Of a DNA stretch of 64,000 nucleotides, positions 31,726 to 50,138 are shown one piece after another. Every line of letters begins with the position of its first letter. Positions within the stretch are counted from its first letter, which is position 1. Origin of the DNA: Alcanivorax sp. DG881 (GTDB taxonomy: Bacteria; Pseudomonadota; Gammaproteobacteria; Pseudomonadales; Alcanivoracaceae); NCBI RefSeq assembly GCF_000155615.1, contig NZ_DS989915.1, positions 2,788,148-2,852,147 of the forward strand. The letters are read 5' to 3'. A program made the position numbers and the translations under genes. The notes beneath the pieces are model-generated. The model saw nothing but the letters and a program-made list of their open reading frames with translations, ran no database searches and was not told the origin of the DNA.

Positions 31726-33918
31726 TCAGAACCGGTAGTCCATCTTCAGGCTATACTTGCGGGCATCCCCGTAGTATCCCCCGTTATAGAACCCCAGATT
31801 GTTGTAGTACTTTTCGTCCGTCAGGTTGCTCACGTTAGCGCCCACCGACAGGGCGGGAGTCACCTGGTAGCGAGCCATCAGGTCCACCAGGGTGTAGCTT
31901 TCCTGAACAAACTTGTAGTCGGCGCTGGCCCCGGGGCGAGTCACGAATGCATAGGTCTTGTTCTGCCAGGATACCGCCGTGCCGATAGTCAGGCCGTTCA
32001 GGTCACCGCGAAAGCGGTACTGGGTGGACAGGCGAATCATGTCTTCCGGCGAAGTCGTGTTTAGCTCGTCGCCGTCCGGGTCTTCGGTAATGCGATAGGT
32101 GTAGCCTGCCTGTACCTGCCAGTCAGGCAGGATCTCGCCGGCGGCTTCCAGCTCAAAACCGTTGGTTTCGGCACCATCCACGGCCTGGTAGGCCACGGAG
32201 TTGGGTGGCCCGCCTGGAATGGGTTGGCCGGTGGACTCGGCCAGGTTGTCCTGATTGATACGGAACACCGCGACAGTGGTGTTCAGGCGCCCCTCATTGA
32301 ACTCACTCTTCAGGCCGGCTTCATAGCTGTTACCTTCTTCCGGGTCGAGAATCTGGTTGTTGGTGTCGCGTACGGTCTGCGGCTGAAAGATGCTGGTGTA
32401 GCTGGCGTACACGGAGTGGTGATCGGTCAGGTCATAGACCAGCCCCAGGTAGGGGACAACCTCACCGTTTTCCTGGTATTGCTCATCCAGGGGGCCTTGC
32501 CAGTTCACGCCCTGGGTGTCGGTTTCCCAGTCCACCACCTGGCCACCGGCAATGACGGCAAGGCGATCGGTGGGTTTGAAACGGGCGGTGGCATACAGGC
32601 TGGTCTGTTTGGTGTGTTGCTCTTCTACCGTATTGGGTGCGGCCCAGACCGGTTTGGGAATATCGCCATCCCAGCTGAGCAGGTCCGGTATCACGTTATT
32701 GAAATTAACCGGCGACTGGCCGGTGTAATCCCGTTCGGCATCGGAGTAGCTGGCGCCCACCACCAATTCATGTTGGCGGCCGAAGAGGGCGAAGGGCCCG
32801 TTGGCGTAGAGATCGAACGTATCCTGGGTCTTGTCCTCCACAAAGCGTCCGGACCATAGCGTCTTGCCGCTGCCATCGCGGTTCAGCTGGCCACCACCGG
32901 CGGAGGCCAGCTGGGCGTCATAGTTGTTCTGCTGGTTGGTATAGGCAAACTTGCTGTACCAGCCGTTTTCGAACTGATGCTCCAGGTTCACAAAGACGGT
33001 TTGTGAATCCTGGGCCCAGCTGCTCCAGTCGGTGGCCGGATTCAGGTCCCGGTCCAGATCGGCAAGGCCGCCGTCGCTGTAGAACAGGGGGATGCCGCCC
33101 CAGGTAGACCCCATGGGATCATAGTCCATGTAGTCCATGCCCACGGTAAGCAGAGTGTTGTCGAACAGGTCCGCTTCGATCACGCCGTAGAACACCTGCT
33201 TTTCGTTTTCGTAGTGATCCAGGAAAGACTCGCCCTGTTCGTAGGCGCTGACAAAGCGGCCGCGCACCCGGCCATTCTTGGACAGTGACCCGCTGGCATC
33301 GAACTCGCCGCGGTAACCGTCCCAGCTGTTCAGCTCCGCGCCCACCTGGCCGGTGAAATCACGGGTGGGTTTCTTGCGTACCAGGTTTACCGTGGCGGAC
33401 GGGTTGCCAATGCCGTTGAGCAGGCCACTGGCCCCGCGCAAGACTTCAATGCGGTCGTAGATGAAGGTGTCGGACAGGGCCGCTTGTTTGCCCAGGGTGT
33501 CGATCCGTGTGGACGGCATGCCGTCGTATAGAAAGTTGGTAATTTCAAAGCCGCGGGCAAACAGCTGCTGGCGTTCGGTGTCCTGGGTTTTCACGGTGAC
33601 GCCCGGCGTGCGCTGCATGACTTCCGCTACGCTGTCGAGGTTGAAGTCGTCCATCTGCTGGCGAGTAATCACGGAAACAGACTGCGGCGTTTCGCGGGGC
33701 GATAGCACCATGCGGGTCGCAGTATCCGTGGCGGTGGTGCCGTATCGCTCGGTGCTTTCTGTGGTCATACTGGCATCGTGTTCATCCACGCTGCTGGCGG
33801 TGACATCAATATTGCCCAGCGTATGCGCATCGCTGTTGCTGGTGGTGGTTTCGGAATAGGCCGCGCCGGCTGCCAGCATGAGGCTGGTGGTCAGAACGGA
33901 AAAACGGAAATAAGACAT
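31726..33918 (-). CDS. TonB-dependent siderophore receptor
   Basis: 730 aa outer-membrane receptor. Signal peptide 1–22 (LMLAAGAAYS|ET), plug domain with ETPQSVSVITRQQMDDFNL and TPGVTVKTQD typical of the FpvA/FhuE siderophore class, and a 22-strand barrel ending MDYRF with the terminal Phe. Start at 33918 (MSYFRFS); the preceding GGGGGAACC is the ribosome-binding site. A Fur box lies about 110 bp upstream. The plug is of the hydroxamate/pyoverdine type, but the actual ligand is not known. Confidence 0.9.
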   Translation of the reverse strand: MSYFRFSVLTTSLMLAAGAAYSETTTSNSDAHTLGNIDVTASSVDEHDASMTTESTERYGTTATDTATRMVLSPRETPQSVSVITRQQMDDFNLDSVAEVMQRTPGVTVKTQDTERQQLFARGFEITNFLYDGMPSTRIDTLGKQAALSDTFIYDRIEVLRGASGLLNGIGNPSATVNLVRKKPTRDFTGQVGAELNSWDGYRGEFDASGSLSKNGRVRGRFVSAYEQGESFLDHYENEKQVFYGVIEADLFDNTLLTVGMDYMDYDPMGSTWGGIPLFYSDGGLADLDRDLNPATDWSSWAQDSQTVFVNLEHQFENGWYSKFAYTNQQNNYDAQLASAGGGQLNRDGSGKTLWSGRFVEDKTQDTFDLYANGPFALFGRQHELVVGASYSDAERDYTGQSPVNFNNVIPDLLSWDGDIPKPVWAAPNTVEEQHTKQTSLYATARFKPTDRLAVIAGGQVVDWETDTQGVNWQGPLDEQYQENGEVVPYLGLVYDLTDHHSVYASYTSIFQPQTVRDTNNQILDPEEGNSYEAGLKSEFNEGRLNTTVAVFRINQDNLAESTGQPIPGGPPNSVAYQAVDGAETNGFELEAAGEILPDWQVQAGYTYRITEDPDGDELNTTSPEDMIRLSTQYRFRGDLNGLTIGTAVSWQNKTYAFVTRPGASADYKFVQESYTLVDLMARYQVTPALSVGANVSNLTDEKYYNNLGFYNGGYYGDARKYSLKMDYRF

Positions 33919-34024
33919 GGTTCCCCCGGTAACAATAAAATGCAGTAACGACGCTCGCGGTTTTGCGTGCATCGAGGCATGTGATGGCTGGGGGAAACCT
34001 GGCGAGAATCACAGGCTTGCGGAT

Positions 34025-39061: not shown

Positions 39062-40108
39062 TCAGGCCGGGTAAAGGCTACCCATGGTGGCGGCCAGCGC
39101 CCGCTGGCAGGCCGCCGGAGTCAGCCCAGACCAACGCTTGAAGGAGCGGCGGAAGTTGGTGCTGTCGGTGAAGTTCAGCTGCCTCGCCACCTGTTCAGTG
39201 CTGTAGCCATGAAACTGTAACCAGTGAATGGCCTGATGCAGGCGCGCCTGATCGAGCAGTTGCTGGTAATGGCAGCCCTGGTCGCGCAAGCGCCGCTTGA
39301 GGGTGGCCGGGCTGCACTGCAGCGGGTTGGCCAGCTGCTGCAAGGAAGGCGGGCTGGCCACGTTCTGCAGCAGCTGGCGATAAAGATACAACCGGAAACT
39401 GTCGCCGCCGGCCAGCGGGTCCAGCTGCGGCTGACATTGCTGTTTCGCTGCCCGCCAGGCAATGGTCGACGCGCCGGGCCAGGGGCTTTCCAGGTAGTGG
39501 CGCGGCAGGATCATGGCATCCAGCTGGCCATCAAAATAGAGGGTGTCGCCCAGATGCACCTGGTATTGCTCCGGATAGGATGGCCGGGCATGGCGGAACT
39601 GGAAGGCCCAGGGCAGCCGCTCACCGCTGAGCCAGCGCGTCACTGACGCCAGCCCGGCCATGGCGGCTTCCACCACAAAACGGTGCTCGCTGCCGTTGCC
39701 GCAACTGTCCAGCCAGTGCAGGCATAGGTGCTGGTCGGTGACCGTCAGGCGAGCCCCCAGCAGGGGGAACACCAGTTTGCTGAAACCGGTAAACACCTGC
39801 AGGGCATCGTGCAGGTTACCGGCATTGCCGAGCAGGGCGCTGATGGCGCCGTAATGCCCGGGGAACAAACGCTGGCCATAACGGAAGCTCAGCTCCGGGT
39901 CTGGCAACAGTCGTCGGGCATTGTGGATCAGCTGCAGCCAGCCGTGCGGACTGAGCCGGGCTTCACCGCTGAGAATCTGTTCCTGGAACAGGCCGGTGTG
40001 TCGCAACAGCCGGTTCAGGTCGATGCCTTGATCGTGAATCAGATCAATCAATACCGCTGGCTGATGATGCGCGGGGATGAAGGCCTGATCTGCCAGATAG
40101 CCGTTCAT
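39062..40108 (-). CDS. AraC family transcriptional regulator (ArgR/OruR type)
   Basis: 348 aa. N-terminal arabinose-binding-like domain of the type found in Pseudomonas AraC regulators (residues ~20–210) and a C-terminal AraC/XylS double helix-turn-helix (~245–345; LQCSPATLKRRLRDQGCHYQQLL and VARQLNFTDSTNFRRSFKRWSG). The ATG at 40108 overlaps the stop of the GGDEF gene by one base (TGATG), implying co-transcription. Target genes are not evident; cfa lies 152 bp further on in the same direction. Confidence 0.9.
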   Translation of the reverse strand: MNGYLADQAFIPAHHQPAVLIDLIHDQGIDLNRLLRHTGLFQEQILSGEARLSPHGWLQLIHNARRLLPDPELSFRYGQRLFPGHYGAISALLGNAGNLHDALQVFTGFSKLVFPLLGARLTVTDQHLCLHWLDSCGNGSEHRFVVEAAMAGLASVTRWLSGERLPWAFQFRHARPSYPEQYQVHLGDTLYFDGQLDAMILPRHYLESPWPGASTIAWRAAKQQCQPQLDPLAGGDSFRLYLYRQLLQNVASPPSLQQLANPLQCSPATLKRRLRDQGCHYQQLLDQARLHQAIHWLQFHGYSTEQVARQLNFTDSTNFRRSFKRWSGLTPAACQRALAATMGSLYPA

Positions 40109-41052
40109 CAGGCGACCCGGGGCTGACCCGAGCGGGATTGCAGCAGGCAACGATTGGCGCGCTCGATCAGGCTGTCCGCGCTGTCATGATGGGAGACTGC
40201 CAGGCCGGTGTGCACCGTTACCCTGTGGGTTTCGCCGCGTCGTGTCTTGAAGGCAAAGTGGTCGGCAGCCTGTTTCAGTTCCCGGCCCAGGTTCTCGGCA
40301 ATCAGGCGTTCGGTGGCGGGCAGGACGACGGCAAAACGGTCGCCAGCATAGCGACACAGCAGATCCTTCTGGCGCAGGTTCAGTACCAGCAACTCGCTCA
40401 GTTCACGCAACAGCCGGTCGCCGTCGGCGCTGCCAAGCAGGCGGCGACTGTGATCGAAGCAGTCCAGGTCAATCATGATCAGCGAAACCGGCTGTTGCGT
40501 ATGCTGCAGCTCCAGCGCCAGTTGCTCACGCAGGTAACGGGCATCGCTGAGCGGGGTCAGTGCATCGAAACTGCGGTGTTCACGGAAAATGCGTTCGCGC
40601 TTGAGCAGCTGCCGGTTGATGGCCCGCTGTTCCCGGTGCCAGTGATAGATGCCCAGTGTCAGCAGGATCATGCCCAGCGGCATGGAGCCGGATTCCACCC
40701 AGTGGTCCCAGTGCACATGGGCGGGCAGCTGAATGAACTCGTCCAGCACGTCCTGCCAGTAGGAGAAAAAGATAAACGCCAGCCCACCACTGAGCAGCCG
40801 GGTGACCCAGCCGGCGGGGCGGCTGTTGAAGATAAAGAAGGTCCACATCAGCGACAGCAGGGCCGCCCCGCCTTCTCCGGCAATATCCAGCCAGGCAATG
40901 TCCGCCGCCGGTTTTAGCGCGCCGACCGCCAGGTTCAGTATCAGTATGCACAGGCCGGTCGCCACGATGGCTGCGATGGACCAGCGGTGCAGTGCTGTCA
41001 TGTTTCCCACGAATAACCTCCATTGTTTGCGCAGGGTATATCTCGTTGTCAT
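40108..41052 (-). CDS. GGDEF-like membrane protein with degenerate active site
   Basis: About 314 aa. Four to five N-terminal membrane segments (e.g. IAAIVATGLCILILNLAVG and GMILLTLGIYHW) followed by a GGDEF fold (SLIMIDLDCFDHSRRLLGSADGD, LCRYAGDRFAVVLP). The signature position reads A-G-D-R-F instead of G-G-D-E-F, and the GTP-binding Gly and catalytic Glu are both replaced, so cyclase activity is doubtful. The start may instead be at 41001 (MTALHRWS), which has GTGGGAAAC upstream. It is coupled to the AraC gene by a one-base overlap. Confidence 0.8.
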   Translation of the reverse strand: MTTRYTLRKQWRLFVGNMTALHRWSIAAIVATGLCILILNLAVGALKPAADIAWLDIAGEGGAALLSLMWTFFIFNSRPAGWVTRLLSGGLAFIFFSYWQDVLDEFIQLPAHVHWDHWVESGSMPLGMILLTLGIYHWHREQRAINRQLLKRERIFREHRSFDALTPLSDARYLREQLALELQHTQQPVSLIMIDLDCFDHSRRLLGSADGDRLLRELSELLVLNLRQKDLLCRYAGDRFAVVLPATERLIAENLGRELKQAADHFAFKTRRGETHRVTVHTGLAVSHHDSADSLIERANRCLLQSRSGQPRVA

Positions 41053-41406
41053 GTCAGGGTGATGACAGCTGCTCCAGGCGAGGGGGCGAGCCTGCCGTGA
41101 GCATCTTCCCGGCAAGAACCGCCACGCGATGGCAATGATCATGGCTCAGTGGCTTTTACACTTGAGGGGTCAAATCAGCTCACGGGTATGGCATTTCCGG
41201 CGTTGAAAAAACGCGGCGGCGGCCGGCGGGTCAGGGTTTTGCAGGTTTCCATGGATTCGGGGTGGGGTGCGATAGGATCACTCGTGACTCGGGATGTCCG
41301 TAAGTTATTGATTTGAAATGGCTGTAACGATAGCGCGTCACCGAACTGACATATTTCCCGCCTACGGTGCCCGGCACACGACATCACCGTTACAGGGGGA
41401 ATCTCC
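41053..41406. other. Intergenic region between the GGDEF protein and the TonB receptor
   Basis: 354 bp without a gene. It holds a candidate Pho box at 41335–41352 and a strong AGGGGG ribosome-binding site (41394–41400) for the receptor. An inverted pair around CGCCGGCCGCC-type GC runs is present near 41210–41235. No terminator or riboswitch was recognised. Confidence 0.5.
41322..41352 (+). promoter_or_regulatory. Candidate PhoB box before the phytase-locus TonB receptor
   Basis: CTGTAAC at 41322–41328, then GCGTCAC-CGAA-CTGACAT at 41335–41352 in the 7-N4-7 layout of PhoB direct repeats (consensus CTGTCAT). The second repeat matches 6 of 7, the first 4 of 7. A -10-like TACGGT lies ten bases downstream. 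Support comes mainly from the better site before exbB and from gene content. Confidence 0.4.
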
Positions 41407-43887
41407 GTGGCTACACCCACTTTCCGATATCGCACGCTGGCGTTGGCCATCGGCCTGCTGTGCGGTTCCGTTCAGGCAGAAGAGGCGCAGACCGTACAGG
41501 GCAGCACCGAACACGTTACCGTGATTGGCCAGGCCGCCAGTCTCGACAAGTCACTGAAGGAAAAGCGCCGTTCCGACAGTATTTCCGATGTGGTCTCCGC
41601 CGATGGCGTGGCCCAGTTGCCGGATGCCAACGCCGCTGAGGCGCTGCAGCGTATGCCGGGGGTGACCGTCGAGCGGGATCAGGGGGAAGGGCGTTATGTC
41701 ACCGTGCGTGGCCTGGGCGCCGGTCTGAACGCGGTGTCCATCAACGGCTCCCTGCTGCCGTCTCCGGAAGGGGACACTCGCGCCGTGGCCATGGATGTGC
41801 TGCCGTCCGAACTGATCCAGTCCATGTCGGTGGTTAAGACCCTGACCCCGGACATGGATGCCAATTCCCTGGGCGGCACCATCGAAGTGCGCAGCCTGTC
41901 CGCGTTCGATCATGACGGCCCGTTCAATACTTTCTCAGCCAGTGGTAGCCATGACGACAACACCGGAGAGATCAGTCCGAAACTATCCGGGGCCCTGTCA
42001 CGAAAATTCAGCCTGGGTGACGGCACTGACAACTTTGGCGTGGCGCTGGCGGCCAGCTGGGAAGATCGGGATTTCGGTTCCGACAATGTGGAAACCGATG
42101 GCGGCTGGGACGACATCCGCGCCGGCACTCTGGAAGAAGTGCTGATGCGCAAGGCAGAGCTGAACCGCAAGCGTCAGGCGCTGGGCCTGAACTTCGACTT
42201 CAAGCCGGATGACATGACCTCCTTCTATCTGCGGACGCTTTATTCCAGCTTCGAAGACACGGAAAACGGCAACAATTCCCTGGTCGCCTTCGACCCGGTT
42301 GTCGGTGTGGGCGAAGACGGCATGGGCGAGGCGGAACTGGAATTCAAGAACCGCACCGAAACCCAGGAAATTCACTCCGTGGTACTGGGTGGCGAAAAAC
42401 TGCTGGAGACCTGGACCCTCAACGGCCAGATCGGCTACAGCCATGCCTTTCAGGATACGCCCAACGAGGTGGAAGCCCTGTTCGTCGGTGGCCCTTTCAA
42501 TGGCGCCTTCCACGACACCCGCAAGCCGATCCCGGCCATGGAGGCGGCGTACTACGATGCCAGCTCCTACGAAATGGACGAGCTGAAGCGCGAAGATCAA
42601 CTGACCACGGATACCGAGGTCAATCTCAAGCTCGACTTCGCTCGTGACTACGTTCTGTCCGGTCATCCGTCACAACTCAAGTTCGGTACCAAGCTGAGCC
42701 GCCGCGAGAAAGACAATGATGTGGAGGTGGTGGAGTTCGATACCGGGGATCTGGCCAGCACCAGCCTGGAAGATTACCAGACCGAAGTGGATTACGGCCT
42801 GGCGCCGTTCGGCCCCGGCGCCAGCAACAGTGCGATCCGGGGAGCCCTGGCAGGCCTCAACGGCGAACGCAACGAGGTCGATTCCCGCCTGGAAGATTTT
42901 GAAATGCGCGAGGACGTGAATGCGCTTTACGTGATGAACAGTATCGATATCGGCGACTGGCACCTGTTGGCAGGTTTGCGCTACGAAGGCACGTCCTTCG
43001 AGGCCGACGGGGTGCGCTACGACGATGCCAGCGGCGAGTGGAGCCCCAACCGCAGCGACAAGCAGGACGACCATGTGCTGCCCGGGCTGCACGCCAACTA
43101 CCGGCTGGACAGCGATACCCTGGTGCGTGCGGCGTTCACCCAAAGTGTGGTGCGGCCTTCCTTCGAGCAACTGGCGCCCTATGTCTATCTTGAAGACGAT
43201 GGCGGCGACCTGAAGGCGGAGTTTGGCAACCCGGAACTGGACCCGTTGAAATCCAGCAACCTGGATCTGGGCATCGAGCGTTATGTGGGCCGTGTCGGCC
43301 TGATGTCCGCCTATGTGTTCTACAAGGACATCAAGAACTACACCTATGCTACCGACCTGTCCGGCACCGGAGACTGGGCCGCCTATGACGAAGCTGCCAC
43401 CTTTGCCAATGGCGACGAGGCCAGCATCTATGGTCTGGAACTGGCTTTCTCCCGCAAGTTTGGGCACTTCCTCACCGGCGCCAACCTGACCCTGAGTGAC
43501 TCCGAAGCCAAGGTCGACGGCTATGACGGTGGCAACTACCTGAGCCGCGACATCGAGCTGCCATTGCACTCCGAGACGGTGGCTAATCTGACTGTCGGCT
43601 GGGAGAACGAGCGTGTCAGCCTGCGCCTGGCGGGGAACTACAAATCCGGTTACCTGGAAGAGATCAGCTCGCTGGATGCGCCGCAGGAAGATCGCTACGT
43701 CGATGACTCCCTGTATCTGGACTTCAGCGCCAGGTACTACATGACCGACCAGCTGCAAGTGAACGTCGAGGCCCTCAACCTCACCGACGAGGTCTACTAC
43801 GCCTACATCGGCAAAGAGCGGTTCAACGCGCAATACGAAGAGTATGGCCCGACCTACAAGCTGGGCCTGACCTGGACCGGACTCTGA
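41407..43887 (+). CDS. TonB-dependent receptor of the phytase/phosphatase locus
   Basis: 826 aa outer-membrane receptor of the TIGR01782 class, which imports large substrates such as glycans, not typical siderophores. Signal peptide 1–24 (GSVQA|EE), a plug domain with DANAAEALQRMPGVTVERDQ and RYVTVRGLG, and a barrel ending in YKLGLTWTGL. GTG could be considered, but GTG at 41407 with AGGGGGAATCTCC upstream is itself the assigned start. It is followed 87 bp later by a phytase lipoprotein and then by ExbB–ExbD–TonB, so its ligand is probably phytate, a breakdown product, or another phosphoester. Confidence 0.88.
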   Translation: MATPTFRYRTLALAIGLLCGSVQAEEAQTVQGSTEHVTVIGQAASLDKSLKEKRRSDSISDVVSADGVAQLPDANAAEALQRMPGVTVERDQGEGRYVTVRGLGAGLNAVSINGSLLPSPEGDTRAVAMDVLPSELIQSMSVVKTLTPDMDANSLGGTIEVRSLSAFDHDGPFNTFSASGSHDDNTGEISPKLSGALSRKFSLGDGTDNFGVALAASWEDRDFGSDNVETDGGWDDIRAGTLEEVLMRKAELNRKRQALGLNFDFKPDDMTSFYLRTLYSSFEDTENGNNSLVAFDPVVGVGEDGMGEAELEFKNRTETQEIHSVVLGGEKLLETWTLNGQIGYSHAFQDTPNEVEALFVGGPFNGAFHDTRKPIPAMEAAYYDASSYEMDELKREDQLTTDTEVNLKLDFARDYVLSGHPSQLKFGTKLSRREKDNDVEVVEFDTGDLASTSLEDYQTEVDYGLAPFGPGASNSAIRGALAGLNGERNEVDSRLEDFEMREDVNALYVMNSIDIGDWHLLAGLRYEGTSFEADGVRYDDASGEWSPNRSDKQDDHVLPGLHANYRLDSDTLVRAAFTQSVVRPSFEQLAPYVYLEDDGGDLKAEFGNPELDPLKSSNLDLGIERYVGRVGLMSAYVFYKDIKNYTYATDLSGTGDWAAYDEAATFANGDEASIYGLELAFSRKFGHFLTGANLTLSDSEAKVDGYDGGNYLSRDIELPLHSETVANLTVGWENERVSLRLAGNYKSGYLEEISSLDAPQEDRYVDDSLYLDFSARYYMTDQLQVNVEALNLTDEVYYAYIGKERFNAQYEEYGPTYKLGLTWTGL

Positions 43888-43912
43888 TCGGATAGCGAAT
43901 TTTCAGGCACCT

Positions 43913-43950
43913 CTTCCCGCACACGAGAAGGGCGGGAAGGGGCGTTTTTT
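43913..43950 (+). terminator. Terminator-like hairpin between receptor and phytase
   Basis: CTTCCCGC (43913–43920) pairs with GCGGGAAG (43932–43939), followed five bases later by TTTTTT (43945–43950). It could partially end the receptor transcript so that the phytase is made at a different level. Confidence 0.55.
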
Positions 43951-43974
43951 AACCTTGTTTTGAGAGAGTTTTCT

Positions 43975-45930
43975 ATGTCGATGCTCAAGCCGCATGTTTG
44001 CTGTGCCGCCTTGTTGATGCTGGCCGTGTTGCCCCTGTCGGGCTGCGGCGATAAGGCGGAACAATCCGCCCAGAAGAAAAACCACGCGCAAAGCGATGTG
44101 CTGATCGAACCTGTGACGCTGGAGGAAAACATCACCGCGGAGGCGGCCCAGTGGTTGCCATCCCTGTCGTTCCTGCCCACCGCCGAAATGCTGGTTAGCG
44201 ATGAAATGAACGGGCTGTTCCTGCTGGACGATAACGGCAAGACGCTGGCGCACCTGCCCGGCGGGTTCGGTGCGCTGGATCATCGCAGTGACGAGCAGGG
44301 GCTGCTGGTGGCGCTGGTGGATGAAAATCGTCAACAGGCCCTGCTGGCTCGCCTGAACGGCGACAACCTTAATTGGGAAAAGCGCCATCTGCCGCAGCCT
44401 GATTTCAAGATAGACGGGCTCTGTCTGCACCGCGATGCCCGCCACAATGACTTCTTGTTCGTGGTGGGCGAGGAAGGTCTGGGTGAGCAATGGCTGGTGG
44501 CCGAAAATGGCCGGATTCTCAAGACGCCCAACAAGGTTCGCAACCTGAGCCTGCCGCCGCAAAGTGAATATTGTCAGGTGGACGATGGCGTTGAGCGTCT
44601 CTATGTGAACGAGGAAAGCGTCGGGCTGTGGGCCTACCCGGCGCACCCGGAAGCGGACCTCAGCCGCGAACCGGTCAGTATCAAGGCGCCCTTCGGGGAC
44701 ATTGAGGGCGCAGCCGCCGCCATGGCGTTGTTGCCGGGCAGCGCTGTGCTGGCGCTGGATCCGAAAGCCGCCCGTCTGCATCGCTATTCGTACCGCGAGT
44801 CGGGCTGGCAGGCGCAGTCACCGCTGTCTCTGGCGGCGCTGGACGAACCGGAGCGGCTGGATGTGCGTCGCCAGGGTGACACGCTGGAATTGTTGATCCG
44901 TGACGATGCCGGTTTGTCCCGGGCCACGCTGGACTGGCAGCCGGACAGCCTGGATGCCCCTGCCGTGTTGCCGCAGTTGTCGGCCGCGGTCCAAACCGAT
45001 CCGGTGCCCAGCCTGGGCGATGCCGCCGATGACCCGGCCATCTGGGTTCACCCGCAAGATCCCGGCAAGAGCCGGGTACTGGGCACCGACAAGCAGGGCG
45101 GTCTGGGCAGCTATGACCTGACCGGAAAACAGGTGCAATACCTGCCAGCGGGCCGCATGAACAATGTGGATGTGCGCAGCGGTTTTGCCCTGGGCGAGCG
45201 CACGGTGGATCTGGCAGCGGCCTCGAACCGGGATCGCAATAGCATCCAGTATTTCGCCATTGACCGTGACAGCGGCGAGCTCACCGATCTTGGCGATAGT
45301 GCCACGCCGATGACGGAAATCTACGGTTTCTGCATGGCGAAGCAGGGAGAGGAAATTTATGCCATTGCCAACGACAAGGACGGCACCTTCATCCAGTACC
45401 GCCTGAGTGCCCCGCAGGGCGAGATGCAGGCCGAAGAGGTACGCCGCTTCAAGGTGGACAGCCAGCCGGAAGGCTGTGTGGCTGACGATGCCGCCGGGCG
45501 CTTGTTCGTGGGCGAGGAAAACGCGGCGGTGTGGGCCTTGCCCCTGAACCCTGCCGAGGACACCACACTGACGGAAGTCATCACGGTGGAAGCGCCGTTG
45601 ATCGAAGCGGATATCGAAGGTATTGCGATCTGGCGTCGCGGTGAGCGGAGCTATCTGGTGATTTCCAGCCAGGGCAACAATTCCTATGTGGTCACCGACG
45701 CCACACCGCCCTACACGGTGCGGGGCGCTTTCCGTATCGGCCTCAACGCGCAGCGCGGCATTGATGGCGCTTCGGAAACCGATGGCCTGGAAGTGAGTGC
45801 TGCCAATCTCGGTGGTGCCTATGCAGAGGGGTTGCTGGTGGTGCAGGACGGCCGCAAGCGCATGCCCGAAGGCAACCAGAACTACAAGTACGTGCCGTGG
45901 GGCGCGGTGCAAGAGGCGTTAGGCCTCTAA
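43975..45930 (+). CDS. Beta-propeller phytase, dual-domain lipoprotein
   Basis: 651 aa. Lipoprotein signal with lipobox LSGC, acylated Cys24, so anchored in the envelope. The C-terminal propeller (~345–650) has the beta-propeller phytase core: DDPAIWVHPQDPGKS (from Asp352), TDKQGGLGSYDLTGKQ and GRMNNVDVR (393–401), which hold calcium- and phosphate-binding residues. The N-terminal propeller (~45–330) has a related LFLLDDNGKTLAHLPGG but GGFGALDHR in place of GRMNNVDVR, so it is probably non-catalytic. Enzymes of this class release phosphate from myo-inositol hexakisphosphate. ATG at 43975 has GAGAG upstream. Confidence 0.9.
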   Translation: MSMLKPHVCCAALLMLAVLPLSGCGDKAEQSAQKKNHAQSDVLIEPVTLEENITAEAAQWLPSLSFLPTAEMLVSDEMNGLFLLDDNGKTLAHLPGGFGALDHRSDEQGLLVALVDENRQQALLARLNGDNLNWEKRHLPQPDFKIDGLCLHRDARHNDFLFVVGEEGLGEQWLVAENGRILKTPNKVRNLSLPPQSEYCQVDDGVERLYVNEESVGLWAYPAHPEADLSREPVSIKAPFGDIEGAAAAMALLPGSAVLALDPKAARLHRYSYRESGWQAQSPLSLAALDEPERLDVRRQGDTLELLIRDDAGLSRATLDWQPDSLDAPAVLPQLSAAVQTDPVPSLGDAADDPAIWVHPQDPGKSRVLGTDKQGGLGSYDLTGKQVQYLPAGRMNNVDVRSGFALGERTVDLAAASNRDRNSIQYFAIDRDSGELTDLGDSATPMTEIYGFCMAKQGEEIYAIANDKDGTFIQYRLSAPQGEMQAEEVRRFKVDSQPEGCVADDAAGRLFVGEENAAVWALPLNPAEDTTLTEVITVEAPLIEADIEGIAIWRRGERSYLVISSQGNNSYVVTDATPPYTVRGAFRIGLNAQRGIDGASETDGLEVSAANLGGAYAEGLLVVQDGRKRMPEGNQNYKYVPWGAVQEALGL

Positions 45931-45931
45931 G

Positions 45932-45947
45932 CGTCGGAGCTCCGACG
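45932..45947. repeat. Perfect 16-bp palindrome between phytase and exbB
   Basis: CGTCGGAGCTCCGACG begins one base past the phytase stop codon and is followed by a related GTCAGAGGTCCGA word. No T-run follows. It lies 22 bp before the exbB Pho box. Confidence 0.5.
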
Positions 45948-45969
45948 TCAGAGGTCCGATCGCGCAAGC

Positions 45970-45987
45970 ATGACATTTTTCTGACAT
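45970..45987 (+). promoter_or_regulatory. PhoB box before exbB
   Basis: ATGACAT-TTTT-CTGACAT, two near-identical 7-bp direct repeats with a 4-bp AT-rich spacer, the exact PhoB geometry. The repeats match CTGTCAT at 5 and 6 of 7 positions. GATACA (45995–46000) lies about ten bases downstream as a possible -10. It would place exbB–exbD–tonB (and perhaps phoX) under phosphate-starvation control. Confidence 0.6.
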
Positions 45988-46011
45988 GGCAGTTTGATAC
46001 AGGTATTCGAT

Positions 46012-46743
46012 ATGCATTCAACAATGAACGACATGACGATCTGGGGGCTGGTCAGCGACGCCAGTCTGGTGGTCCAGGCGGTCATGCTGGTGCTGATACT
46101 GGCGTCGGTGGGCAGCTGGTGCTTGATAGTGCTGCGCCATCTGGCCATGCGCCGGGGGGAAAAGCACCAGAAACAGTTCCTGGCCACGTTCCGTGGTGAA
46201 GACAATCTGGACTCCCTGGCGCAACTGCCCGTGCCCGGCCATCGCCAGGCCGCCCTGCAAACCCTGTTCAATGCCGGTTATGCCGAATACCAGTTGCTGC
46301 ACGGCGACTGGGACGCCAGCCCGGCCTCGGTGCAGGAAGGGGTGGAGCGGGTCATGCAGGGGGTGATCTCGGAGCAGGAAGCGGACCTGGAAGCGGGGCT
46401 TTCCTTCCTCGCCACGGTGGGGTCGGTGAGCCCCTACATCGGTTTGTTCGGCACCGTCTGGGGGATCATGAATTCCTTTATCGGTTTGTCCCAGGTGCAG
46501 CAGGCCACCCTGTCCACGGTGGCTCCGGGCATCGCTGAGGCTCTGATCGCCACCGCCATCGGCCTGTTCGCCGCCATCCCCGCTGTTATCGCCTACAACC
46601 GCCTGTCCGCTCGCGGCCAGCGGTTGATCGCCAGCAGCTACGCTTTCGGTACGGAACTGCAGCAACGCCTGCACCGGCTTCTGTACGGCAAGCGTAACGG
46701 CAGGCCACAGGAAGAGGGAGCGGGGCAGAGGAAAGCGTCATGA
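46012..46743 (+). CDS. exbB: ExbB/TolQ-type proton channel protein
   Basis: 243 aa inner-membrane protein of the MotA/TolQ/ExbB family. Three membrane segments: SLVVQAVMLVLILASVGSW near the N terminus, and the conserved pair ATVGSVSPYIGLFGTVWGIMNSF and APGIAEALIATAIGLFAAIPAVIAYN, typical of the proton-conducting core. The start at 46012 has AGG eight bases upstream; a TTG at 45994 would overlap the Pho-box promoter. Coupled to exbD by ATGA. TolQ is the alternative name, but no tolA/tolB/pal follows; a TonB gene does. Confidence 0.9.
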   Translation: MHSTMNDMTIWGLVSDASLVVQAVMLVLILASVGSWCLIVLRHLAMRRGEKHQKQFLATFRGEDNLDSLAQLPVPGHRQAALQTLFNAGYAEYQLLHGDWDASPASVQEGVERVMQGVISEQEADLEAGLSFLATVGSVSPYIGLFGTVWGIMNSFIGLSQVQQATLSTVAPGIAEALIATAIGLFAAIPAVIAYNRLSARGQRLIASSYAFGTELQQRLHRLLYGKRNGRPQEEGAGQRKAS

Positions 46744-47183
46744 AGCCCCCAGCTCACAAGCATCCGCAAAAGGCCGAAATGAATGTGGTGCCCTACATCG
46801 ACGTGATGCTGGTGTTGCTGGTGATCTTCATGGTCACCGCGCCCATGCTCACCCAGGGCGTGACGATCGAACTGCCCAAGGTGGAAGCGGAAGCGCTGCC
46901 CCAGGACCAGGAGCAGAAAATTCTCACCCTGTCGGTCAAGAACGATGGCAGCTTCTACTGGAATCTGGGCGACGACCTGGATATCCGTGGCGAGACCGGC
47001 AACGCCGCTGACGTGGATGCCATGGTCGATCAGGTTGGTGCCATCGTGACCAGCGAAGAGCGCGTGCAGGTGTATATCCGTGCCGATGAAGATGCGGTGT
47101 ACAGCATGGTGGTGGCGGGCATGGCGGCCCTGCAAAAGGCGGGGGTGACCCAGCTCGGGCTGATTACCGAGGCGCCACAATGA
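46740..47183 (+). CDS. exbD: ExbD/TolR-type energy-transducing protein
   Basis: 147 aa with one N-terminal membrane helix (about 17–37) in NVVPYIDVMLVLLVIFMVT, carrying the essential membrane Asp of the family, followed by TQGVTIELP and a periplasmic domain. It overlaps exbB and tonB by ATGA at each end, so the three proteins are made together. Sequence leans to the TolR side of the family, as many marine ExbDs do. Confidence 0.9.
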   Translation: MKPPAHKHPQKAEMNVVPYIDVMLVLLVIFMVTAPMLTQGVTIELPKVEAEALPQDQEQKILTLSVKNDGSFYWNLGDDLDIRGETGNAADVDAMVDQVGAIVTSEERVQVYIRADEDAVYSMVVAGMAALQKAGVTQLGLITEAPQ

Positions 47184-47926
47184 CCGCTGCTGTTTATCAT
47201 TTGCCGGATGATGTGTCGGTGCAGCGCCGTCAGCGCTGGCTGGCGGTGGGCCTCAGTGTCCTGCTGCACGGTTTGCTGGCGTTGTTTCTGTTGGGCAACC
47301 GGATGTCGACACCGCCGCCACCCCCGCAGATCCAGACCCTGGAAACCCGGCTGATCACCCTGCCGCCGCCGCCCGAGAAGGTGCCGCCCGCGCCTGCACC
47401 GGAACCGGTGGTGGAAAAACCGAAACCGAAGCCCGAACCAAAACCCGATCCGAAACCGAAAAAGGCGGATGTGGCCTGGGAGCGGCCCGAGCCGAAACCA
47501 AAGCCTGAACCCGACCCTGAGCCCGAACCGGAACCGGAACCGGTGTCGGAGCCGGAAACACCGCCACAGCCACAACAAAAAGTGGCCGAGACAGCGGCGG
47601 CGGAACCCGCGCGCCCGGCCTTTGTGCCGGAGCAGGTGGCGGCCAGTGATCTGCAGAGCAGCTACCGGCCATTAAGCAAGGCGCCACCGGATTATCCACG
47701 CCGGGCCCTGATGCGCGATGTAGAAGGCGATTGCACCGTGACTTACACAGTCAACAAGGCGGGCAAGGTGGAAGAGCTGGCGGTGGTGAAAGGGGACTGC
47801 CACCCCTTGTTCGAGAAACCCTCGCTGGCGGCGGCACGGCAGTTTCGTTACAGCCCGCACAAGATTGATGGCAAGGCGGTAGCGGTAACCGGCGTGCGTA
47901 ACACCTTTCATTACAAGCTGCGTTGA
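47180..47926 (+). CDS. tonB: TonB energy transducer
   Basis: 248 aa. Membrane anchor at 21–40 (WLAVGLSVLLHGLLALFLLG), a long proline-rich spacer (~47–140) with KPKPEPKP-type repeats that spans the periplasm, and a C-terminal TonB domain (~165–248) with PPDYPRRALMRDVEGDCTV and a YKLR end. Overlaps exbD by ATGA. Together with the receptor at 41407 it forms a dedicated TonB module; one pair of cysteines in the C-terminal domain is unusual for TonB and could form a disulfide. Confidence 0.9.
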   Translation: MTAAVYHLPDDVSVQRRQRWLAVGLSVLLHGLLALFLLGNRMSTPPPPPQIQTLETRLITLPPPPEKVPPAPAPEPVVEKPKPKPEPKPDPKPKKADVAWERPEPKPKPEPDPEPEPEPEPVSEPETPPQPQQKVAETAAAEPARPAFVPEQVAASDLQSSYRPLSKAPPDYPRRALMRDVEGDCTVTYTVNKAGKVEELAVVKGDCHPLFEKPSLAAARQFRYSPHKIDGKAVAVTGVRNTFHYKLR

Positions 47927-47933
47927 TAGCGAA

Positions 47934-47970
47934 CACTGGCACGCAGCAGGCTTCACGCAACAGGGCAAAC
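47934..47970. repeat. CACGCARCA-type word repeat between tonB and phoX
   Basis: Contains CACGCAGCAGGCTTCACGCA and then ACAGGGCAAAC. It shares AGGCTTCACGCA with the parE–parC spacer. It begins 8 bp past the tonB stop and is the main content of the 88-bp gap before phoX. Confidence 0.5.
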
Positions 47971-48014
47971 AATGAGCAGCCGAAAAGCGTGCGGCATCTA
48001 CATCAGGAACAACC

Positions 48015-49976
48015 ATGAAAACACTGCGCCAACAACACGATGATTTTCACGAAGCACTGGAAGCCCAGGGGGATGTGTCGGTGAACCCGTCCGGTAATCC
48101 GTCGCTGAATGACGTGATTTGCCTGCGCCGGCGGGGCGTTCTGAAAGGCACGCTGGGGCTGGCCGCCACCGGCTTCATGGGCGGGACTCTGGCGGCCTGT
48201 TCGTCCGACACCGGCAAAACCGCGCCGGGCTTCAAGGGGGTACCCATCCAGACGGCCACGGATTTCGACACCGTGCGGGTGCCGCCGGGCTATACCGCCA
48301 GGCCATTTTTCTCCTGGGGGGATGCGGTGCTGGCGCAGGCACCGGCCTGGCGGACGGACGCCGGGAATGACTGGCGCGAGCAGCTTATGCAGGCCGGCCA
48401 GAACAACGATGGCATGCATTTCTTTCCGTTCCCGGACAACCCCAACCGTCACGGCCTGCTGGTGGTCAATCACGAGTATGTGAACCCCACCCTGCACCGG
48501 GACGGCTTCGAGGACGTCGATGCTAAACGGCCCCTGGCCCAGGTGCGCAAGGAGCAGGCCGCCCATGGCGTCAGTGTGATCGAGATCGAGAAGGATGAGG
48601 CCGGGCAGTGGCAGCGGGTGATGCCGTCGCGCTGGAATCGACGCATTTCAGGCCTCACCGAGATGGAAATCCGCGGCCCGCTGGCCGGCCATGGGCTGAT
48701 GAAAACCGTGGCCGACCCGGATGGCAAGACCGTGATCGGCACCCTCAACAACTGTTCCATGGGCGTTACACCCTGGGGCACCTATCTGGCCTGCGAAGAA
48801 AACTGGCATGACTATTTCGTCAACCGGGACAGCGAGGATCAACGGGTGTCCCACCGCCGTTACGGTATTGGCGAGGGCGAACGGGCGGACAAATATGCCT
48901 GGAATACGGCGGAGCCGCGCTTCGATGCCACCTTTGATGAAACGCAAGCGTTCGGCGGTTATCTGCAAGAGCCCCATCGCTATGGCTGGGTGGTGGAAAT
49001 CGACCCTTTCGACCCGGAATCCACCCCGATCAAGCGCACCGCCTTTGGCCGTTTCTGCCGCGAATGCTGCACCGCCTCACTGGGTGAGGATGGCCGCCTG
49101 GCGTTTTACTCCGGCGATGATTCCCGTGGCGAATACCTCTACAAGTTCGTGCCGGAAGGCCGCCATATCGAGGGCGACCGGGAGCACAACCGTCACCTTC
49201 TCGACACGGGTACCTTGTATGTGGCGCGTTTCGATGGCGATGGCAGTGGTGTGTGGCTGCCGCTGGTGCACGGTGAAAACGGGCTGACAGAAGCTAACGG
49301 CTTTGCTGATCAGGGTGAGGTACTGGTCAACGCCCGCGCCGCCGCCGACCGGCTGGGAGCGACGACTATGGACCGCCCGGAGTGGGTGGCCGTGGACCCG
49401 AACAGCCGTGAGGTTTACGCGACTCTTACCAACAACCACAAGCGTGGCCACGCCCACCCCATCAACGCCGCCAACCCTCGCCACGACAATCACCACGGCC
49501 AGATCATTCGCTGGCGCGAACAGAACGCGGACCCCACCGCCACCCGGTTCACCTGGGATCTGTTTCTGCTCGCCGGCGAAGCGCAGGGCAGCAGGGATGA
49601 AAACGGCCAGCCATTTCCCGACCACCTGACCGGCACCATCGACGGCGATCTCTTCTCATCGCCGGACGGGCTGGCCTTTGACGCAAGCGGGCGGCTGTGG
49701 ATCGAAACCGACTACGACGATCGGGATCCGCTGATGAAAAACATGGGCTGCAACCAGCTACTCTGTGCCGACCCGCAAAGCCGGCAAGTACGCCGTTTTC
49801 TGGTAGGGCCCCGTGGCTGCGAAATCACCGGCATCACCTTCACCCCGGACCAGCGCACCCTGTGGGTCAACATCCAGCACCCAAAAATCAGCTACCCGGC
49901 CAGCGATGGCACCACCCGCCCGCGCTCCACCACGGTGGTGATTAGCAGGGATGATGGGGGAGTGGTGGGGACATGA
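48015..49976 (+). CDS. phoX: PhoX-type alkaline phosphatase (DUF839), Tat-exported lipoprotein
   Basis: 653 aa. Twin-arginine signal RRRGVLKG (residues 38–45) after an N-terminal extension, then a lipobox LAAC with acylated Cys62. The mature enzyme has PhoX features: NPNRHGLLVVNHEYVNP, NNCSMGVTPWGTYLACEENWHDYF, and a metal-binding C-terminal region with WIETDYDD. PhoX enzymes use iron and calcium and release phosphate from a wide range of monoesters; Tat export fits cofactor loading in the cytoplasm. It follows tonB by 88 bp with no terminator seen, so it probably belongs to the same unit. Confidence 0.88.
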   Translation: MKTLRQQHDDFHEALEAQGDVSVNPSGNPSLNDVICLRRRGVLKGTLGLAATGFMGGTLAACSSDTGKTAPGFKGVPIQTATDFDTVRVPPGYTARPFFSWGDAVLAQAPAWRTDAGNDWREQLMQAGQNNDGMHFFPFPDNPNRHGLLVVNHEYVNPTLHRDGFEDVDAKRPLAQVRKEQAAHGVSVIEIEKDEAGQWQRVMPSRWNRRISGLTEMEIRGPLAGHGLMKTVADPDGKTVIGTLNNCSMGVTPWGTYLACEENWHDYFVNRDSEDQRVSHRRYGIGEGERADKYAWNTAEPRFDATFDETQAFGGYLQEPHRYGWVVEIDPFDPESTPIKRTAFGRFCRECCTASLGEDGRLAFYSGDDSRGEYLYKFVPEGRHIEGDREHNRHLLDTGTLYVARFDGDGSGVWLPLVHGENGLTEANGFADQGEVLVNARAAADRLGATTMDRPEWVAVDPNSREVYATLTNNHKRGHAHPINAANPRHDNHHGQIIRWREQNADPTATRFTWDLFLLAGEAQGSRDENGQPFPDHLTGTIDGDLFSSPDGLAFDASGRLWIETDYDDRDPLMKNMGCNQLLCADPQSRQVRRFLVGPRGCEITGITFTPDQRTLWVNIQHPKISYPASDGTTRPRSTTVVISRDDGGVVGT

Positions 49977-50138
49977 ATTAATAGTTAATAATGAATAATT
50001 AATAGCTACGCGATTATGCGTCACGCGATGTCGTTACACGCAAGTGGCCGCGCCCGGAGGATGGGCGCGGCCTCTTGCGTTTGAAATACCCAAAACCGAT
50101 CTCACGAACTATTAATTATTCATTATTAACTATTAATT
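49976..50138. repeat. Perfect 30-bp inverted repeat flanking a strong hairpin
   Basis: The arm at 49976–50005 (starts AATTAATAGTTAATAATG) is exactly the reverse complement of 50109–50138. The arms are AT-rich and made of TTAATAA/TAATAG words. The interval of 103 bp holds a GC-rich hairpin at 50038–50080. The left arm starts at the last base of the phoX stop; the right arm ends 5 bp before the alcohol dehydrogenase stop. Confidence 0.8.
50038..50080. terminator. Strong hairpin between convergent phoX and alcohol dehydrogenase
   Basis: ACGCAAGTGGCCGCGCCC (50038–50055), loop of 7, GGGCGCGGCCTCTTGCGT (50063–50080); one mismatch in 18 pairs. Convergent genes on both sides make a bidirectional terminator likely, although only TTT follows on the plus strand. 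Confidence 0.65.

Follow-up and report, generated by a model that had tools for sequence, protein, structure and literature searches.

We describe here a gene cluster in a 64,000-nucleotide stretch of the Alcanivorax sp. DG881 genome (contig NZ_DS989915.1; hereafter the window), in which genes for a TonB-dependent receptor, a beta-propeller phytase, ExbB, ExbD, TonB and a PhoX phosphatase follow one another on the plus strand (41407-49976), divergent from genes for a GGDEF protein and an AraC-family regulator. We judge it probable, though with considerable reserve, that the cluster is a phosphorus-scavenging unit for phytate, metal-phytate or a lower inositol phosphate, which has its own motor, is under joint PhoB and AraC control and arose by replacement with a Pseudomonas-type cassette. 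The gene neighbourhood by itself suggests phytate or an inositol phosphate as the substrate, and with it a role of the receptor as a phytate transporter.

In the proposed mechanism, the receptor would carry a large anionic substrate across the outer membrane, powered by the ExbB-ExbD-TonB set of its own locus. To judge from their families, a lipid-anchored and probably periplasm-facing two-domain phytase would then trim this substrate, and PhoX (PhoA in one relative) would remove phosphate from the products. PhoB would provide one regulatory input, acting through a Pho box that takes the -35 position of the receptor promoter, at a fixed distance from the -10 element, and through a second Pho box belonging to exbB; the other would come from the divergent AraC-family regulator at its own operator, and the two may act in AND fashion. 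The GGDEF protein, degenerate but with its I-site intact, may pass cyclic di-GMP (c-di-GMP) or membrane state into this switch. A structural cassette of the Pseudomonas type would have replaced the native receptor and phytase genes between the native regulators and the native downstream flanks. We put forward more tentatively, as a possibility that we would not yet call probable, a bolder version in which the locus is transferable, its own TonB motor imports intact phytate, PhoB and a substrate-sensing AraC protein form an AND gate and the GGDEF protein ties the gate to c-di-GMP; if true, the lifestyle state of the cell would decide phytate use.

Components and conservation of the locus

The first-pass annotation of this DNA had proposed the same gene set, order and coordinates on a single strand, with ATGA overlaps between the motor genes. 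Pfam, NCBIfam and the reading frames bear this out, and both the exbB/exbD and the exbD/tonB joints read ATGA. The receptor matched TIGR01782 with 581 bits (cut-off 310) as well as the Plug (PF07715) and barrel (PF00593) families, had no STN domain in the Pfam/NCBIfam domain listing and was the sole above-cut-off TIGR01782 match in its genome. The phytase scored 307.5 bits against PF02333 (cut-off 21), which places it among the beta-propeller phytases; it comprises two propellers, a degenerate N-terminal and a complete C-terminal one, and residues 340-655 align with the solved phytases 3amr, 1poo, 1cvm and 1qlg. The motor proteins, with MotA/TolQ/ExbB, ExbD/TolR and TonB_C domains in one unit, form an energy module. 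ExbB and ExbD clear the NCBIfam cut-offs of tolQ (TIGR02796, 239 bits; cut-off 221) and tolR (TIGR02801, 131.8 bits; cut-off 127.3), not those of exbB and exbD, and their partner is still a TonB rather than a TolA. A scan of the 10 proteins at 39.1-52.8 kb found no SusD family, and the locus is thus not a SusCD-type polysaccharide or phosphate utilisation locus.

PhoX matched PF05787 with 546 bits over residues 77-623 and the solved PhoX 3zwu at a phmmer E-value of 1.2e-157, and its full-length sequence carries the twin-arginine motif RRRGVLK followed by LAAC. The earlier description of a phosphatase lipoprotein exported by twin-arginine translocation (Tat) therefore holds, but PhoX is an optional part: its presence in just 22 of the 80 best-matching named loci rules it out as an essential component. 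At one locus (L195, 11987-15051), two PhoA-type phosphatases (PF00245) follow the TonB set in the place of PhoX.

Conservation was assessed in the best 80 of at least 575 phytase relatives (the named loci), mostly from Pseudomonas and Stutzerimonas and also from Halopseudomonas, Oxalicibacterium, Herminiimonas and Methylotenera. Receptor, phytase and ExbB occurred together in 80/80 of them, with ExbD and TonB as well in 79/80; the sole locus without the last two (L049) is cut by a contig end. A divergent AraC and GGDEF pair was present in 76/80, and the other four sequences start close to the receptor. A run of five genes shared by 79 of the 80 nearest named loci is not a matter of chance, and the check proposed with the first-pass annotation, whether this receptor clade co-occurs in relatives with the phytase and its own ExbBD-TonB, thus came out in its favour. 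The named loci partly repeat those of the draws described next (L045 matches L035 in its identities, and the proteins of L048 and L202 are identical).

We further read the neighbourhoods of all 109 phytase loci in a draw of 391 genomes from the order, using profiles built from the 80 named loci, that is, from the window's clade, which distant TonB proteins may escape. Receptors were found in 84 of the 109, the AraC and GGDEF pair in 62 and a full ExbB-ExbD-TonB set in 17. Thirteen of these sets were TolQR-like and four (L038, L203, L207 and L209) of another kind, which reads DUF3450-MotA/TolQ-ExbB-ExbD-TonB-TPR and occupies the same slot after the phytase (from Pfam for L203, from reading frames for L038 and L209 and from profile matches alone for L207 and also L125). 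We liken the motor of these five loci to what we take to be TtpC/TonB2-type modules, which combine MotA/TolQ, ExbB, ExbD, TonB, TPR and DUF3450 proteins; the window, in contrast, has a simple three-gene TolQR-like set. TonB alone lay near the phytase in L215, and in L219 (10238-14424, numbered along the phytase strand) the phytase is followed by an ExbD-TonB-receptor-ExbB set with a second TonB receptor inside it. In the class-level draw phytase was rarer (12/370 genomes), and these profiles found no ExbB, ExbD or TonB in the 11 class-draw loci that were read.

These counts bear on whether the motor serves the receptor beside it. The ExbB-ExbD-TonB genes could instead form a second TonB system of general use, which happens to move with the cassette and supplies energy to many receptors; TonB proteins often serve several receptors, and 67 of the 84 receptor-bearing order loci have no full motor set alongside. 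We regard this as unlikely, if the least unlikely of the competing explanations that follow: two different kinds of TonB module occupy one slot, which argues that TonB energy supply matters to the receptor, the motor has its own Pho box in 31/94 loci, and the profiles found TonB in 0/25 receptor-less phytase loci of the order.

A related question is where the phytase acts. The first-pass annotation had a surface phytase cut phytate outside the cell, the receptor import lower inositol phosphates and PhoX finish the work in the periplasm. The window's phytase carries the lipobox LSGC with Gly at +2, which is compatible with an outer-membrane lipoprotein, although a lipobox by itself leaves the facing of a protein undecided. 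By a crude signal screen, lipoboxes occur in 62/86 phytases of receptor loci without this ExbB and in 33/94 of those in loci with it (the ExbBD type), in which 60/94 have signals like those of signal peptidase I (SPI). These counts give no support to surface location as a rule; cleavable signals indicate a periplasmic enzyme in those 60 cases and thus favour import before cleavage, and no surface-export family was found among 10 proteins scanned in and beside the locus. A phytase of P. pergaminensis has been termed Sec/SPI (PMC9369656). We consider cleavage outside the cell an improbable order of events. Of the earlier interpretation as a whole, the conserved co-occurrence stands and a surface phytase finds no general support; the regulatory side, with AraC and GGDEF genes, operator and Pho boxes, had been overlooked.

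Promoter architecture and the divergent regulators

Promoter motifs were sought de novo in 147 divergent promoter regions (143 distinct) from 206 loci with hits, with training on the 73 regions that remained after dropping near copies and regions shorter than 200 or longer than 800 bases. The first motif, gggGGTCAaATCAGCTCA, reached an expectation-maximization log-likelihood of 772, compared with 67 in shuffles. This 15-bp operator had its best site above 10 bits in 147/147 regions, in a single orientation, and reached at least 14 bits in 143/147; two operators per region were usual (101/147 with a threshold of 14 bits). Cross-validated between Pseudomonas-type loci and the rest, the operator was recovered in 43/46 and 27/27. 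In the window the operator scored 28.8 bits and was the sole site of at least 12 bits, and its perfect core occurs once in the 3.8-Mb genome (41168-41182 of the window), with three more copies at two mismatches. A strict form of the pattern, narrower than the motif in that it catches the phytase-locus site in 11/20 genomes, gave 24 matches in 20 genomes, 13 in phytase loci and 11 elsewhere; the reversed pattern gave 10, so that matches outside phytase loci are at chance level.

As a control we took 47 order loci without a called AraC and GGDEF pair, of which 45 entered and 44 were scored. The operator score was at most 9.3 bits in 41/44; the other three (L203, L207 and L209) had about 22 bits and AraC matches, with no GGDEF gene called and, in L209, with the AraC match more than 5 kb distant. 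The operator thus tracks the presence of AraC. Its two G(G/C)TCA boxes, spaced at ten bases, would fit a single AraC-type protein, for which it is a putative binding site. We find it improbable that the AraC and GGDEF genes are neighbours by descent and the motif another factor's site, as the three motif-keeping loci without a called GGDEF gene and the distant AraC match of L209 might suggest, because the motif accompanies AraC in 147/147 regions and in these three cases, was not found in the other 41/41 scored loci without the pair, lies at chance level elsewhere in its strict form and has the two-box structure.

With the operator masked, a second motif emerged, CTGTCACagAACtGTCAT (log-likelihood 670, compared with 65 in shuffles), which we take to be the Pho box. 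It reached at least 14 bits in 143/147 regions, and cross-validation between Pseudomonas-type and other loci recovered 38/46 and 27/27. Exactly two sites of at least 12 bits occur in the window, at 41335 before the receptor and at 45970 before exbB. The promoter geometry is largely fixed: in the 70 of 73 training loci counted, the nearest upstream operator lay 72 bp from the Pho box in 33, 71 bp in 11 and 61 bp in 8, with scatter in the other 18, and ten bases after the Pho box follows a -10 element TAnnnT (T.95, A 1.00, T 1.00; n = 61). No sigma-70 consensus promoter was found (shuffles give 2.2), a result that the Pho box would account for if it stands in for the -35 element. Sites of at least 12 bits also precede exbB in 31/94 loci with this ExbB (27/85 distinct gaps; shuffled rate 0.05%), 28 of them on the plus strand; the three on the minus strand come from the window and from a near-identical record present twice, and the window's exbB box is thus oriented opposite to those of the other 28 loci. 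With a Pho box at a functional promoter position, the cassette is predicted to belong to the Pho regulon and to be induced through PhoB.

The GGDEF motif of the window's protein reads AGDRF, while the I-site RxxD is kept in an alignment with PleD. No D or E stands at the fourth motif position in any of 144 homologues (R in 137); the K of FK is present in 0/144 and the I-site in 129/144, window included. The GG(D/E)EF signature and the FK/ND residues of an active diguanylate cyclase are therefore not present together, and the protein is unlikely to make c-di-GMP; a degenerate active site with an intact RxxD instead suggests that it may be a c-di-GMP receptor rather than a cyclase. Eight receptor-less phytase loci (L168, L169, L171, L172, L174, L183, L184 and L211) have a divergent AraC and GGDEF homologue as well, with operators of 12-24 bits in the five that are within the motif set, and the regulatory pair may predate the link to the receptor.

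Table 1. Features of the phytase locus (window coordinates)
Feature	Position	Strand	Basis or remark
AraC-family regulator	39062..40150	-	PF12625 N-terminal domain and HTH_18; divergent from receptor
Degenerate GGDEF protein	40108..41142	-	Pfam; hydrophobic N-terminal part; true start may be a later ATG near 41052
Putative AraC operator AGGGGTCAAATCAGCTCA	41165..41182	+	De novo motif; core GGTCAAATCAGCTCA at 41168-41182
Pho box GCGTCACCGAACTGACAT, receptor promoter	41335..41352	+	Second de novo motif, 19.9 bits
TonB-dependent receptor, TIGR01782 type; proposed phytate/inositol-phosphate importer	41407..43887	+	NCBIfam and Pfam
Two-domain beta-propeller phytase lipoprotein	43960..45930	+	PF02333; likely start ATG 43975
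Second Pho box ATGTCAGAAAAATGTCAT, just 5' of exbB	45970..45987	-	12.98 bits
ExbB (TolQ-like)	45994..46743	+	PF01618; TIGR02796
ExbD (TolR-like)	46740..47183	+	PF02472; TIGR02801
TonB, proline-rich linker and TonB_C domain	47180..47926	+	PF03544
PhoX phosphatase, Tat lipoprotein	48015..49976	+	PF05787

Mixed ancestry of the locus

We next compared the window with its genus, in which 9/17 genomes carry the phytase, the window's included. In the other eight loci, receptor and phytase occupy the corresponding site, next to the same dehydrogenase and amidase, with an AraC and GGDEF pair in 7/8, that is, wherever the contig extends far enough; this TonB set occurs within one of the eight only, a near-identical relative (G007). 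Leaving that relative aside, identity to the window is 45-49% for the receptor and 41-44% for the phytase, and 61-89% for AraC, 61-66% for GGDEF, 79-85% for the dehydrogenase and 76-92% for the amidase. Among the matches listed, the nearest named record of the phytase is the metagenome-assembled genome Alcanivorax sp. MAG NORP25 (97% identity), and the best Pseudomonas phytase is 64% identical. In trees, the window's receptor, phytase and PhoX group with Pseudomonas types, and its AraC and GGDEF with Alcanivorax; these were quick trees with long branches flagged, and the groups for the approximately unbiased (AU) test were named once the identities were known. In this test a single family clade had p = 0.007 for the receptor and 0.02 for the phytase. 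For AraC, a position of the window's protein outside the family was rejected (p = 9e-5), and the corresponding genus-level test did not reject (p = 0.07); a first AraC test (p = 2e-92) was set aside because its constrained Pseudomonas set is itself not one clade. The simplest reading of these sequence comparisons is that the structural genes were exchanged in place under the native regulator, a reading that the AU tests back at family level.

With respect to L034, the window's AraC is 89% and its GGDEF protein just 66% identical, so that a border of the exchange may lie near or in the GGDEF gene. At the other end, the terminator listed by the scan 3' of PhoX (50046-50072) is bracketed by a perfect 30-bp AT-rich inverted repeat (49976-50005 and 50109-50138), which looks like a small mobile repeat at the cassette edge; it was not found in the near-identical relative L035, and single exact copies of its 28-base core occur close to this junction in L034 and L037. 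A terminator seen by eye between receptor and phytase was absent from the scan list and is not claimed. A second TonB-receptor-like gene with weak TIGR01782 matches (31726-33972, minus strand) lies some 5 kb beyond the AraC end.

Counter-evidence, known systems and significance

Several observations weigh against the proposed phosphorus-scavenging unit or against single parts of it. The choice of the named loci favours the window's own clade, and the motor is found in just 17 of the 109 order loci, so that elsewhere receptor and phytase manage without an adjoining one. The genome holds a single phytase gene along with other TonB and ExbD genes (four TonB_C and seven ExbD matches) and PhoX matches at three places, and the TonB and PhoX of the cassette are thus not its only ones. 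The window retains one good operator, 170 bp from the Pho box, while the copy exactly 72 bp above that box is ruined (0.2 bits). Operator sites with up to three mismatches number 50 in the genome, compared with 34 for the reversed pattern; such loose sites are somewhat over-represented, and further targets are possible. The stretch that separates receptor from phytase (168 loci) and the one preceding PhoX (30 loci) contain neither a Pho box nor an operator of at least 12 bits. A first, consensus-driven Pho scan was strong at exbB (0/200 shuffles as good), ambiguous at pstS and at the second PhoX, and short of significance in the promoter of the receptor (P = 0.185). Two substrate residues of the GGDEF domain, which in PleD presumably hold guanine, are widely kept (N in 112/144, R in the window; D of GD in 129/144), and the I-site is lost in all eight receptor-less loci with the pair and in seven receptor loci, which speaks against a universal c-di-GMP role.

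Published work adds a further point on the same side: the phytases of P. stutzeri DSM4166 and P. fluorescens SBW25 gave no evidence of PhoBR control and were placed outside the Pho regulon, in passages that suggest induction of Pseudomonas phytases by phytate itself (PMC5082522, 2016). The cassette is known to us from relatives of these strains only (Stutzerimonas loci, P. libanensis and others), and, in contrast to the conclusion drawn in those passages, the Pho boxes of these relatives are strong (24.4 and 29.2 bits). A two-input promoter with a fixed operator-Pho geometry could reconcile the two.

The boxes also bear on the metal. Phytate is a strong iron binder, and Pseudomonas can use it as an iron source; the receptor might accordingly be an iron transporter for ferric phytate, with phytate as the metal carrier and a phytase that frees iron or salvages the carrier. 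Phytic acid is noted as an iron chelator in PMC3400609. We consider this reading doubtful at best, given the Pho boxes 5' of receptor and exbB, the phosphatases, PhoX or PhoA, that follow in some of the loci and the weak matches (<90 bits each) of the receptor to siderophore and heme receptor models, set against its 581 bits for TIGR01782.

Receptor-phytase pairs and the idea of a phosphorus locus are already in print. In Citromicrobium bathyomarinum JL354, a TonB receptor adjoins a phytase gene, and the same paper has a phytate-linked class of TonB transporters (PMC3400609, 2012); the case resembles the window in this neighbourhood and in phytic acid as the proposed substrate, and the passages devoted to it mention no ExbBD-TonB set of its own, AraC/GGDEF pair, operator or Pho box. 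In Flavobacterium johnsoniae, the receptor Fjoh_1368 and the phytase Fjoh_1367 are induced by phosphate depletion, and 'phosphate utilisation systems' have been proposed there as a phosphorus counterpart of glycan loci (PMC8115612, 2020). These systems differ from the window in that they belong to Bacteroidetes and comprise SusCD-like pairs, and the relevant passages include neither a dedicated ExbBD-TonB nor an AraC operator. Caulobacter crescentus, in which PhoB controls TonB receptors and a phytase (PMC11208175), shares the Pho control with the window; its account, in the part concerned, has no cassette-borne TonB motor or second regulator. The titles, abstract openings and passages of the open-licence literature searched yielded no description of a dedicated motor or of AraC/GGDEF control, and within the reach of these searches, the new features are a TonB motor dedicated to the locus, an AraC regulator paired with a degenerate GGDEF protein, the operator, and its fixed spacing from the Pho box.

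To our knowledge, no route by which a Gram-negative cell takes up so large and charged a molecule as phytate has been shown. In some soils phytate is a leading form of organic phosphorus (up to half, as cited in PMC5082522). The locus joins transporter, motor and enzyme in one concrete unit whose promoter is defined, and makes it testable why the phytases of phytate-growing pseudomonads seem not to answer to phosphate starvation alone; the AraC-family protein is a candidate for the regulator, so far missing, that responds to phytate, and a link to c-di-GMP is possible.

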